Part shown: positions 22,859-32,845 of the stretch, piece after piece
How positions within the stretch are numbered: the first letter of the stretch is position 1
Layout: every line of letters begins with the position of its first letter
Assembly: GCA_937910235.1 (NCBI GenBank)
Contig: CALENB010000451.1
Span: 1-33,441 of the forward strand
DNA from: an uncultured Myxococcales bacterium
GTDB lineage: Bacteria; Myxococcota_A; UBA9042
Direction: 5' to 3'
Length of the DNA stretch: 33,441 nt
Position numbers and translations under genes: made by a program
The notes under the pieces: generated by a model
Database searches by the model: none
What the model was told of the DNA's origin: nothing
The model's input: only the letters and a program-made list of their open reading frames with translations

Positions 22859-23002
22859 GGTACCTCGGCGGTCCGCGGCTCGGGGCCGTGGCGTTGCACA
22901 CTAGGGCGTTGTGGCTATGGTGTAGGCCCGTCACAATAGCTGCTTCGGGAGGCAAGGTCGGGGGAATGTCCCGATCGGCCGCGGGGTTTGTCAAGAAGCC
23001 AC

Positions 23003-23066: not shown

Positions 23067-24038
23067 ATGTCGAAAGAGCCCATTCTCAACAACCCGCTTG
23101 AGCAGTACCTCCGTGAGGTGAATCAGTACGAGCTGCTGAGTCGCGCCGAGGAGTATGAGCTCGCCACCCACTTCCGAGACACCGGGGATCCCGCCGCCGC
23201 CCGCGCGCTGGTGACGGCGAACCTGCGTTTTGTGGTCAAGGTCGCCTACCAGTTCTCAAACTACGACATCAAACTCACCGACCTCATCCAAGAGGGCAAC
23301 ATCGGCCTGATGAAGGCTGTGCAGAAGTTCAAGCCTGACACCGGTTTTCGTCTGATCAGCTACGCCGTGTGGTGGATCAAGGCCTACATCCAGAACTACA
23401 TCATCAACACGTGGTCGCTCGTGCGCGTGGGGCCCGTCGCGCAGCAGCGCAAGGTGTTGTTCGGCAAACGCGAGCTGCCTGCGCCCTCCGAGCAGGGTCA
23501 CGGCGACATCACGCGGCTCCTCGCCGACGGCACCGCCGAGATCATCGATGTTGACGCGAACATCGAGGACGACGCGACCTTCCTCATCGTCGCGGAGGTC
23601 GCCGACGCGCCCGGGACCAAGCGCCGCAAGGCGAAGAAGCCGACTCAGGACGAAGTCGATGTGTGGCGCAAGGCCGCCCACGCCGCGCGTCGCGATATGA
23701 ACCTCGACAACACCATCTCCGAGGACGGCCGGATGACGCTCGGGGAGACGCTGGCCGCCGATGACCCGAGCATCGAGGAGCAGTACGCCAGCGCAGAGAT
23801 CACGGCCATGGTCGCCGATCGCCTGTCGGAGCTGCACGCAGATCTCAATGACAAAGAGCTGACGATTTTGGAGGAGCGCCTGCTCGCCGACGAGGGCCGC
23901 ACGCTCCAAGACGTGGGTGAGCAGTACGGGATCTCGCGCGAGCGGGTCCGCCAGATCGAGGTCAACCTCAAGAAGAAGATCGCGCGTCGGCTGGAGGGGC
24001 TCAGCCCCGTCGCCCTGTTTGGGCCGCCCGAGCTGTAG
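23067..24038 (+). CDS. rpoH: RpoH-like (sigma-32) sigma factor
   Basis: Alternative sigma factor of 323 residues, probably for heat or related stress genes. Region 2 (about 45-120) reads ANLRFVVKVAYQFSNYDIKLTDLIQEGNIGLMKAVQKF and GFRLISYAVWWIKAYIQNYI, with the WSLVR that starts region 2.4/3. QQRKVLFGK (126-134) corresponds to the RpoH box. Region 4 (about 258-310) has DVGEQYGISRERVRQIEVNLKKKI. Between them residues about 145-200 form an acidic then lysine-rich insert that I do not recognise in standard RpoH, where region 3 is shorter. Myxobacterial RpoH-like sigma factors such as SigB and SigC are an alternative label. AGGAG lies nine bases before the ATG. It is convergent with topA, with only 14 bases between. 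Confidence 0.9.
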   Translation: MSKEPILNNPLEQYLREVNQYELLSRAEEYELATHFRDTGDPAAARALVTANLRFVVKVAYQFSNYDIKLTDLIQEGNIGLMKAVQKFKPDTGFRLISYAVWWIKAYIQNYIINTWSLVRVGPVAQQRKVLFGKRELPAPSEQGHGDITRLLADGTAEIIDVDANIEDDATFLIVAEVADAPGTKRRKAKKPTQDEVDVWRKAAHAARRDMNLDNTISEDGRMTLGETLAADDPSIEEQYASAEITAMVADRLSELHADLNDKELTILEERLLADEGRTLQDVGEQYGISRERVRQIEVNLKKKIARRLEGLSPVALFGPPEL

Positions 24039-30862: not shown

Positions 30863-32035
30863 CTACAGAAAGGACGGCGGCTGGATGATGCCCATCAGCG
30901 CCTGATGCTCGAGCTCGCTGACGACACTCATGATCTCGCCACCTTTCACCGTGTGCACCACGCTGTATCCGGCGACCATGTCACGCACCGCGCCGCTCGG
31001 CTCGGGCTGCTGATCGGCGGCCGGCTCGGGTCGGTCGTCGAAGAGTCCCCGCCCCAGGACCGGCAGGTAGCGCACCACCGTCACGGGTTTATCGAAGGCC
31101 ACGTAGCGAAACGTCACGACCCGGCGAGAACCCAGGTGACCCAAACGCGCGCCGAGCAGTCGCACGCCGGCGCCCTCAGCGATCGGTACCGAGCTGTGGC
31201 CAGGCGCCGCTCGACGCAACCAGTCCTGCACACGCGCGCTGCCCGCCACTTCGGGCGGCACCGGCTGCATGTGGCTGCCGACGAGCGCGCGCAGGTTGGC
31301 CCGCGTTCGAATCGCGCCGTAGTTGCCGTCTTGGGCCAAGAACTCGTTGCCCACGCCGCCGCCAAGCACCTCGGTGGTCTCGATGTGGTCCACCAACCGC
31401 ACGCCTGCGCCGGCGCGTCGCTCGGATTCGCAGTACTCCATGTTGTCGCGAAGCGAGCGCGTCACACGCATCGCCGGGCGGTGCTGCGCAGTCCGTTTCG
31501 GGTCCGAGCCACGCACGCCAATCTTCATCGTTCCCGCGACGAGCGTCGGCGTCTTCACGGTGCGAATCGGCGCGGCGCTCGCCGACAACGCCGCTGCCGA
31601 CAACGCCGCTGCCGACAACGCCGCTGCCGACCCTGGGCTCCCGACGATCGCGCCGCGGATCATCGCCGTTCCAAGCCCACCGGCTCGGGCGACCGGCGTG
31701 CCGGCGAGCCCATCGGCGTTTGTCACGCTCCACTGCCATCCGACCACGACTAGGCTGAGACCTGCCGCCATGGCGACCGGGATCACCCAGCGCGGCAGCC
31801 CGTCACCGACGTCTGATGCATCCAAACCCGCACAGATTCGGGCGCGCAGGTGCGTCGGTGCCTCGTCGCAGCGCAGATGCCGTCGCAGTCCGTCACGAAA
31901 ACTGGCGGCGGCCTCCACGTGGCCGCGGCAGGGTGCGCAGACCGTGATGTGAGCTTCGAACTCGGCGCGCTCGCGTCGATCAAACTCACCGTCGAGGTAT
32001 GTATAATCGTACTTGCGTACGTCGTCGCAGATCAC
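30863..32035 (-). CDS. Membrane anti-sigma factor, RsrA-like zinc site
   Basis: Anti-sigma factor of 390 residues. The N-terminal zinc-binding anti-sigma domain has C3, H29, C33 and C36. The C-x25-H-x3-C-x2-C spacing is the same as C11, H37, C41 and C44 of the disulfide-stress sensor RsrA, so a thiol redox switch is plausible. DYTYLDGEFDRRERAEFEAHI is typical of the domain. Unlike cytosolic RsrA, a transmembrane helix follows at about 82-103 (WVIPVAMAAGLSLVVVGW). The next about 285 residues should be periplasmic and match no family I recognise. The GTG start at 32035 has GGAG seven bases upstream. A 15-bp repeat encodes part of the linker. It begins 62 bases after the ECF sigma gene, the usual sigma/anti-sigma order. 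Confidence 0.85.
   Translation of the reverse strand: MICDDVRKYDYTYLDGEFDRRERAEFEAHITVCAPCRGHVEAAASFRDGLRRHLRCDEAPTHLRARICAGLDASDVGDGLPRWVIPVAMAAGLSLVVVGWQWSVTNADGLAGTPVARAGGLGTAMIRGAIVGSPGSAAALSAAALSAAALSASAAPIRTVKTPTLVAGTMKIGVRGSDPKRTAQHRPAMRVTRSLRDNMEYCESERRAGAGVRLVDHIETTEVLGGGVGNEFLAQDGNYGAIRTRANLRALVGSHMQPVPPEVAGSARVQDWLRRAAPGHSSVPIAEGAGVRLLGARLGHLGSRRVVTFRYVAFDKPVTVVRYLPVLGRGLFDDRPEPAADQQPEPSGAVRDMVAGYSVVHTVKGGEIMSVVSELEHQALMGIIQPPSFL
31581..31625. repeat. Three 15-bp repeats in anti-sigma gene
   Basis: GCCGACAACGCCGCT occurs three times in tandem, with a partial fourth copy to 31631. It encodes repeated Ala-Ala-Ala-Leu-Ser in the segment just outside the membrane. Length change would keep the frame. 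Confidence 0.85.
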
Positions 32036-32097
32036 AGCTCACTCCGGGGTTCGTTCCACGTCAGATCACGCATCATCACCAGAACAATCCATCCGTC

Positions 32098-32769
32098 TCA
32101 ACCGTTGGCGGCCTTCGGCGTCCGCTTCGCGCGCAGGCGGAAGGCGTCGATCGGGATGACGCCCTGCTCGTTGACGTCCGGCCGATCCACGATGCCCTCG
32201 CTGACGGCGTGGTCCAGCAGCTTGCGCTGCATCTGCCGGCGCGCCCGGTACAATCGACTCATGACGGTGCCCACCGGGCAGTCCATCACCTCGGCGATCT
32301 CCTTGTAGGAGAAGTCCTCCAGGTCGGCCAGCAGCAACACTGTGCGAAAGTCCTCAGGCAGCGAATCCAGCGCCTCTTGCATATGGGAGCTGATCACACC
32401 GTCGAGGATCTGCTCCTCCAGCGGTCGATAGATCCCGGTGCTCTGGTGGTGCTCGGCGACCTGCAGCTCGATGTCCGGCAACGCGTCCGTCTCCACCATC
32501 GGCCGGCGCTTCTTGGCCCGCTGGATGTTGAAAAAAGTGTTTGTCATGATGCGAAACATCCACGCACGGCAGTTCGTACCCGGCTCATAGCGGTGATGAT
32601 TCTTCAGGGCCTTGATGTAGGTCTCCTGTACGAGATCTTCCGCGTCCGCCGGGTTGCGGCTCAGATGCATCGCGTAGCCATACAGGGAGTCGAGATGAGG
32701 CATCGCCTCTTTCTCGAACTCTCGGCGGGCCTTCGCCTTTGTTCGGTCTTGTCCAAAGAGTCCCAACAT
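32098..32769 (-). CDS. ECF sigma factor, SigR-like
   Basis: Sigma-70 family extracytoplasmic function sigma factor of 223 residues. Region 2 (about 22-88) contains MHLSRNPADAEDLVQETYIKALKN and YEPGTNCRAWMFRIMTNTFFNIQRAKKRRP. Region 4 (about 135-185) contains LPEDFRTVLLLADLEDFSYKEIAEVMDCPVGTVMSRLYRARRQMQRKLL. The phrases after region 2.3 and in region 4 resemble Streptomyces SigR and related ECF12 members, which answer thiol-oxidative stress. A 30-residue C-terminal tail is extra. The ATG at 32769 is behind GGAGGGAGAG; a GTG at 32790 lies in that purine run and is rejected. It is followed by its likely anti-sigma gene and preceded by a SigR-type promoter motif, so autoregulation is expected. 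Confidence 0.92.
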   Translation of the reverse strand: MLGLFGQDRTKAKARREFEKEAMPHLDSLYGYAMHLSRNPADAEDLVQETYIKALKNHHRYEPGTNCRAWMFRIMTNTFFNIQRAKKRRPMVETDALPDIELQVAEHHQSTGIYRPLEEQILDGVISSHMQEALDSLPEDFRTVLLLADLEDFSYKEIAEVMDCPVGTVMSRLYRARRQMQRKLLDHAVSEGIVDRPDVNEQGVIPIDAFRLRAKRTPKAANG

Positions 32770-32819
32770 TGTTTTTCTCTCCCTCCCCACGCGGTGAAGC
32801 CTGGGTCATCCATCCTACC

Positions 32820-32845
32820 AACGCACCGCCCAGCAGCGCTATTCC
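32820..32845 (-). promoter_or_regulatory. SigR-type promoter, GGAAT-N18-GTT
   Basis: On the minus strand GGAAT (32841-32845) and GTT (32820-32822) are exactly 18 bases apart, the pattern known for SigR targets. Transcription would start near 32812, about 43 bases before the ECF sigma start codon. Position and spacing fit autoregulation by the encoded sigma factor. Such a short motif can arise by chance. Confidence 0.55.

Follow-up and report, generated by a model that had tools for sequence, protein, structure and literature searches.

The sigma-E system with RseA and RseB is known from the Proteobacteria, and sigma-E of E. coli controls rpoH. Its output in E. coli also includes Skp, SurA, FkpA and HtrA (PMC6737893). 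Full lipid A binding by MucB requires its C-terminal domain, and the pocket lies in the N-terminal domain (PMC7400510).

For the SigH/SigR type, the promoter consensus in C. glutamicum is GGAATA, a spacer of 16-19 nt, and (C/T)GTT (PMC3489674). Sigma release by the anti-sigma RsrA requires the N-terminal zinc cysteine (PMC4960319), and the passage of PMC5358783 that cites Jung 2011 names E39, E40, L45 and E46 as residues that tune RsrA redox sensitivity. RsiW of B. subtilis also carries a CHCC site; its C3-C37 disulfide forms with SigW still bound, and it is redox-insensitive (PMC5358783). In M. tuberculosis, the membrane-associated RslA responds to redox state (PMC2877774). The zinc motif occurs in ~48% of membrane-bound class I anti-sigmas, where a structural role has been proposed, and in the same published survey RsrA-like anti-sigma domains of ECF12 were found only in Actinobacteria (PMC7406223).

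Here, a sigma/anti-sigma pair is described from a window of 33,441 nucleotides, a contig of a 7.1-Mb Myxococcota MAG (genome G000). All conclusions are predictions from MAG sequence, and the promoters are predicted.

Results

Gene pair and sigma factor affiliation

Both reading frames lie where the first-pass annotation had placed them (Table 1). The sigma frame stays open to GTG 32790; the true start is probably the ATG at 32769, which is preceded by GGGAGGGAGAG. The anti-sigma gene begins 62 nt past the sigma stop. The pair has the appearance of a two-gene operon, since it is flanked by a convergent LPG_synthase_TM gene on one side and by tRNA-His and tRNA-Lys on the other. The order of the two genes is kept across the family and much of the Myxococcota.

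Table 1. Coordinates of the features discussed, numbered from the first letter of the window
Feature	Position	Strand	Evidence
ECF sigma factor, SigR/SigH-like	32098..32769	-	Sigma70_r2 and r4; TIGR02947 217 bits; PDB SigH 174 bits
Membrane-anchored zinc anti-sigma factor, 390 aa	30863..32035	-	zf-HC2; RsrA model 53.6 bits; one TM helix
ZAS domain, residues 1-56, C3/H29/C33/C36	31868..32035	-	four ligands invariant in 21 orthologues
Transmembrane helix, residues 84-106	31718..31786	-	hydropathy and model helix
Disordered Ala/Gly/Ser-rich periplasmic linker, residues 110-228	31352..31708	-	pLDDT <50 over most
Folded periplasmic domain, residues 229-388	30872..31351	-	predicted model; conserved in family and wider Myxococcota
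Autoregulatory promoter (predicted) GGAATAGCGCTGCTGGGCGGTGCGTT	32820..32845	-	GGAAT-N18-GTT
GGAAT-N18-GTT-type promoter GGAATGTCCCGATCGGCCGCGGGGTT upstream of rpoH-like gene	22963..22988	+	predicted
RpoH-like heat-shock sigma factor, predicted regulon member	23067..24038	+	TIGR02392 235.6 bits, cut-off 323

The proposed likeness of the sigma to SigR is borne out by profile and PDB searches. Its best curated model is TIGR02947 (SigR/SigH) at 217 bits, followed by the next family at 134 and generic ECF at 100; among PDB entries, SigH leads, and the next natural sigma is SigE at 92 bits. The RpoE-like model TIGR02939 gives 104 bits against a cut-off of 236. As the TIGR02947 score is below the cut-off of 251.55, SigR/SigH is the family nearest to the protein, by 83 bits, and the protein is not a curated member of it. 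On the same model, genus relatives score 211, actinobacterial controls 292 and 335, other Myxococcota 171-184 and Omnitrophota 150. In a quick tree of 87 sigmas with long branches, the Myxococcota sequences form one clade (SH-aLRT 88) and the Actinobacteria a separate one (99); both sit inside a single supported set, apart from the other ECFs of the same genome.

Omnitrophota loci (L097-L099) encode a similar sigma and, with it, a CHCC anti-sigma that is anchored in the membrane and has a periplasmic domain alignable with the one described here; a search upstream of these sigma genes for the GGAAT-N18-GTT string did not find it. On another contig of G000 (C190), an ECF sigma other than the one described here is followed by a second zf-HC2 protein, which is small and soluble (85-aa frame).

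Zinc site of the anti-sigma factor

The anti-sigma begins MICDDV... and its C3, H29, C33 and C36 form the C-x25-H-x3-C-x2-C motif reported in the first-pass annotation. The sole Pfam match is zf-HC2 (33.8 bits, cut-off 22.2). With an H-x3-C-x2-C domain encoded next to an ECF sigma gene, the protein is a zinc anti-sigma factor (ZAS, class I ASD). The AlphaFold2 model is confident here, with pLDDT 94-98 across residues 1-50. All four ligands are invariant in 21/21 family members, which answers the suggested check on C3 in orthologues.

The best NCBIfam model is RsrA (TIGR03988), in keeping with the RsrA-like label given earlier; its 53.6 bits are under the cut-off of 62.5, and for a profile built from 21 homologues, the matches to RsrA (1.7e-11) and RsiW (8e-11) are of similar strength. 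The first-pass annotation had also read the ligand spacing as a mark of RsrA. This did not hold: the 25-residue C-to-H spacing is found in 21/21 family members, 18/20 other Myxococcota and 7/7 ZAS proteins from other phyla, and kinship to RsrA on this ground was rejected, the spacing being widespread among ZAS proteins. At the positions of RsrA E39/E40/L45/E46, the window's anti-sigma has T31/V32/R37/G38, and the hydrophobic-core position L18 of RsrA aligns with D10. The zinc site by itself therefore proves little on thiol sensing. Cytosolic thiol sensing through this site appears possible from the sequence but unproven, because the spacing is common, RsiW is redox-insensitive and the RsrA tuning residues are not kept.

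Periplasmic domain

A transmembrane helix and ~285 further residues do follow the zinc site, as first proposed. Of these ~285 periplasmic residues, only ~155 are predicted to fold, and 110-228 are mostly predicted to be disordered. The helix and periplasmic region recur in anti-sigmas throughout the Myxococcota set; the actinobacterial anti-sigmas found are short and have no TM helix. Linker length is highly variable among relatives, and at 31580-31630 the linker of the window holds three head-to-tail 15-bp repeats (GCCGACAACGCCGCT, + strand), which encode an Ala/Leu/Ser repeat.

In the AlphaFold2 model the ZAS domain and TM helix are followed by this linker and by a folded domain from ~229, predicted to contain six strands and a C-terminal helix (pTM 0.79 when modelled alone). 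For both models, full-length and domain alone, Foldseek ranks RseB and MucB first (probability 1.00, best E 1.5e-3), and VIA-align matches the RseB/MucB C-terminal domain (211-311) over 86-92 residues at Z 7.5-8.0, a Z of ~8 being near the level of common folds. Six RseB/MucB entries top the fold list at Z 7.7-8.0 over 87-92 residues, followed by TM1622 at ~7 (7.1) and MucB again at 5.2; in the domain-alone list, the entries after RseB, MucB and TM1622 are unrelated folds at Z 4.5 and below. The match of the model to RslA has Z 6.7.

The profile search recommended for the periplasmic part returned nothing from Pfam, including PF17188, the RseB/MucB C-terminal family, at E<=10. HMM-HMM comparison with E. 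coli RseB, a weak single-sequence test, gave no signal. Sequence homology to RseB was accordingly rejected, and since these tests were negative, the predicted domain is described as having a fold like the RseB/MucB C-terminal domain and not as a member of that family. The RseB/MucB N-terminal domain is absent from the window's anti-sigma, and a search of 22 genomes for RseB C-terminal-domain genes returned none above cut-off. A periplasmic disulfide switch was rejected, as the family has no conserved periplasmic cysteine.

Predicted promoter of the sigma gene

The first-pass annotation had placed a GGAAT-N18-GTT promoter ahead of the sigma gene. It is present ~50 nt before the likely start (Table 1) and recurs with a spacer of 17-19 nt at 20/21 family loci, 19 of them with N18, and at 21/26 other Myxococcota loci. 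The 87 scrambled patterns average 0.10 at the family loci and 0.24 at those of other Myxococcota, so this recurrence is not chance. None of 10 outgroup ECFs has GGAAT-N17-19-GTT upstream. Presence was scored by strict string, which undercounts, and several genomes are fragmented. A control with divergent genes was dropped, since conserved positions of the motif came together with syntenic neighbours and this spoiled the comparison; scrambled patterns were used in its place. The motif agrees with published SigH/SigR consensus promoters, and its conservation strongly supports the predicted recognition of GGAAT-N16-19-GTT promoters by this sigma.

Predicted regulon

The regulon content comes mainly from one genus, in three species of which 156 N18 occurrences were read: 46 of 51 in G000, 77 in G001 and 33 in G003. 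Family-wide follow-up covered the sigma, rpoH, moxR, htrA, trxA and dsbA-like promoters, and the identities of the predicted regulon genes were checked by Pfam and NCBIfam. The genome scan proposed in the first-pass annotation did reveal further promoters of this type, before trxA, clpP and other conserved genes. In all three genomes the motif precedes the genes for: the sigma; TrxA; ClpP; a SurA/PpiC lipoprotein; and a DsbA-like CPFC protein. In two of the three it precedes htrA, OmpH/Skp, Bax1-I, a transglycosylase PBP, rpoH and a second clpP, a pair that says less because its spacers are near-identical. The htrA gene of G000 has the motif at N17, and the third rpoH copy of the genus trio is the one in the window. 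Spacer identity between orthologues is mostly 22-67%, with the motif kept. As a chance hit is estimated by the author at ~0.1% per gene and genome (51 hits in 14 Mb, both strands), the presence of the motif in all three genomes is far beyond chance. The tight motif is also followed by LspA in three genomes and, in one, by a LolD-like ABC protein.

Across the family, the motif stands upstream of rpoH in 20/22 genomes (including G011), and in 14/14 genomes with both genes on one contig the distance between rpoH and the anti-sigma gene is 7.2-11.1 kb. Motif counts are 10-11 for HtrA, 9 for DsbA-like and 4 for TrxA. For MoxR, 13/26 loci tested carry it, including 12/16 closest orthologues with the start present and 0 clear paralogues. 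Pooled, these four gene families have the motif at 36/114 loci (scrambled mean 0.90), and the antisense strand of the same upstream regions has none. A small number of scrambled patterns get as high as 10/114, and one scores 17/26 at rpoH, which makes single motif hits weak evidence; the 17/26 probably arises because that pattern picks up the same conserved site with its letters shifted, or conserved sequence beside it.

In most family members (L160, L183, L185, L214, L218, L222, L243) the MoxR ATPase gene is preceded by the promoter; in G000, G001 and G003 it is not, so that regulon membership seems to shift between genera. A DUF6986 gene is preceded by a GGAATTCAAG-type motif in two species (L193, L149), with a divergent lipoprotein-like gene alongside. 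Hits upstream of DUF6986, AmtB-like and tetratricopeptide genes were discounted as unproven, as were some matches within coding sequence, such as GGAATCGTCGAGGCGGTGAGCGCGTT. The RpoH-like sigma of the window has an extra ~60-70 residues between conserved regions, its matches split at ~residue 139, and its NCBIfam RpoH scores are below the cut-offs.

Discussion

Proposed mechanism and alternatives

Taken together, the sequence, its conservation, the recurrence of the promoter and the domain model make it probable that this pair is an envelope-stress switch built from SigR/RsrA-type parts and functionally like sigma-E/RseA/RseB. In the resting state, the cytosolic zinc domain of the anti-sigma would keep the sigma at the membrane. 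The C-terminal RseB-like domain would read periplasmic damage or misfolding, and the sigma would then be freed, most likely via regulated proteolysis of the anti-sigma. The freed sigma would transcribe its own operon and drive the GGAAT-N18-GTT regulon: rpoH, HtrA, DsbA-like, SurA/PpiC, Skp, thioredoxin and ClpP, with MoxR in much of the family. Envelope stress is the first reading suggested by the predicted regulon and the modelled periplasmic fold. The likeliest signal is envelope folding stress, and the likeliest release proteolysis, because a sigma-E-like output is coupled to a membrane anti-sigma with an RseB-like domain; signal, proteolysis, sigma binding, promoter use and any thiol sensing by the zinc site are inferred.

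One alternative would be a redox switch, in which the CHCC site senses disulfide stress as in RsrA and the anchor and periplasmic domain merely place or tune it. The ligands invariant in 21/21, RsrA as best curated model, and the promoter before trxA, clpP and DsbA-like genes would all fit, as would the redox-sensitive, membrane-anchored RslA (PMC2877774) and the zinc cysteine needed for redox release by RsrA (PMC4960319). This reading is nevertheless unlikely: RsiW has CHCC ligands yet is redox-insensitive (PMC5358783), the tuning residues and the core leucine (L18, here D10) of RsrA are not kept, and the conserved regulon is mostly envelope or heat-shock rather than thiol repair. Zinc-site oxidation and a periplasmic signal might instead each free the sigma, joining thiol and envelope folding stress in one protein. 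That both modules are conserved together, and that the regulon mixes thiol (trxA), cytosolic proteolysis or heat-shock (clpP, rpoH) and periplasmic folding genes, is consistent with such dual input; a zinc site can, however, be purely structural in membrane-bound anti-sigmas (PMC7406223), and this arrangement is considered unlikely. The broadest formulation, with an RsrA-type zinc thiol switch and an RseB-type periplasmic sensor in one protein, and a SigR-family sigma integrating both stresses into a combined sigma-E/SigR/heat-shock regulon across the Myxococcota, can be put forward only tentatively.

It is very improbable that this is an ordinary ECF pair whose sole promoter is the autoregulatory one, the remaining matches being coincidence or belonging to another sigma. 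GGAAT-N18-GTT is short, it has chance matches in coding sequence, and other ECFs can use GGAA -35 elements. Against this, the motif recurs before orthologues with diverged spacers, keeps its exact 18-nt spacing and stands at 20/22 rpoH genes, with no antisense hits.

On the envelope-stress reading, SigR-type parts seem to drive a sigma-E-like output (rpoH, htrA, surA, skp, dsb) in a Myxococcota clade in which RseB was not detected. If true, control of one stress regulon falls to another sigma family here. It becomes testable whether membrane-bound ZAS proteins use their zinc site for sensing or only to hold shape.

Comparison with described systems

SigL/RslA of M. tuberculosis shares a membrane-anchored zinc anti-sigma, with a zinc site that is redox-sensitive in RslA (PMC2877774) and a fold match at Z 6.7; it differs in its HHCC rather than CHCC ligands, its sigma group and its regulon of cell-wall and polyketide synthesis. 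SigW/RsiW of Bacillus subtilis has the CHCC site, one TM helix and an extracytoplasmic domain, and RsiW matches the homologue profile about as well as RsrA does. The differences lie in the sigma group, the regulon and RsiW itself, which is insensitive to redox state and undergoes release through proteolysis.

SigR-RsrA of Streptomyces coelicolor and SigH-RshA of M. tuberculosis and C. glutamicum (ECF12) contain the nearest sigma family. Shared with the window are a CHCC zinc anti-sigma encoded beside the sigma and, as predictions for the window, autoregulation, a GGAAT(A)-N16-19-(C)GTT promoter, and trx and clpP targets (PMC3489674). RsrA, however, is a soluble single-domain protein, whereas the window's anti-sigma crosses the membrane with a TM helix and continues into a periplasmic domain. 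The Myxococcota sigmas also form a clade apart from the Actinobacteria, the scores fall below both curated cut-offs, and rpoH and envelope folding dominate the predicted regulon.

Sigma-E/RseA/RseB of E. coli and AlgU/MucA/MucB of Pseudomonas share the membrane-anchored anti-sigma, and the RseB/MucB C-terminal fold resembles the periplasmic domain predicted here. In contrast to the sigma-E system, the window's sigma is SigR-like and not RpoE-like, a zinc domain replaces RseA_N, the RseB-like domain is fused to the anti-sigma without the lipid-binding N-terminal domain of RseB, and the -10 element differs. In its content (HtrA, SurA/PpiC, Skp, Dsb-like, RpoH) the predicted regulon resembles E. 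coli sigma-E output, with TrxA and ClpP as additions typical of SigR/SigH systems.
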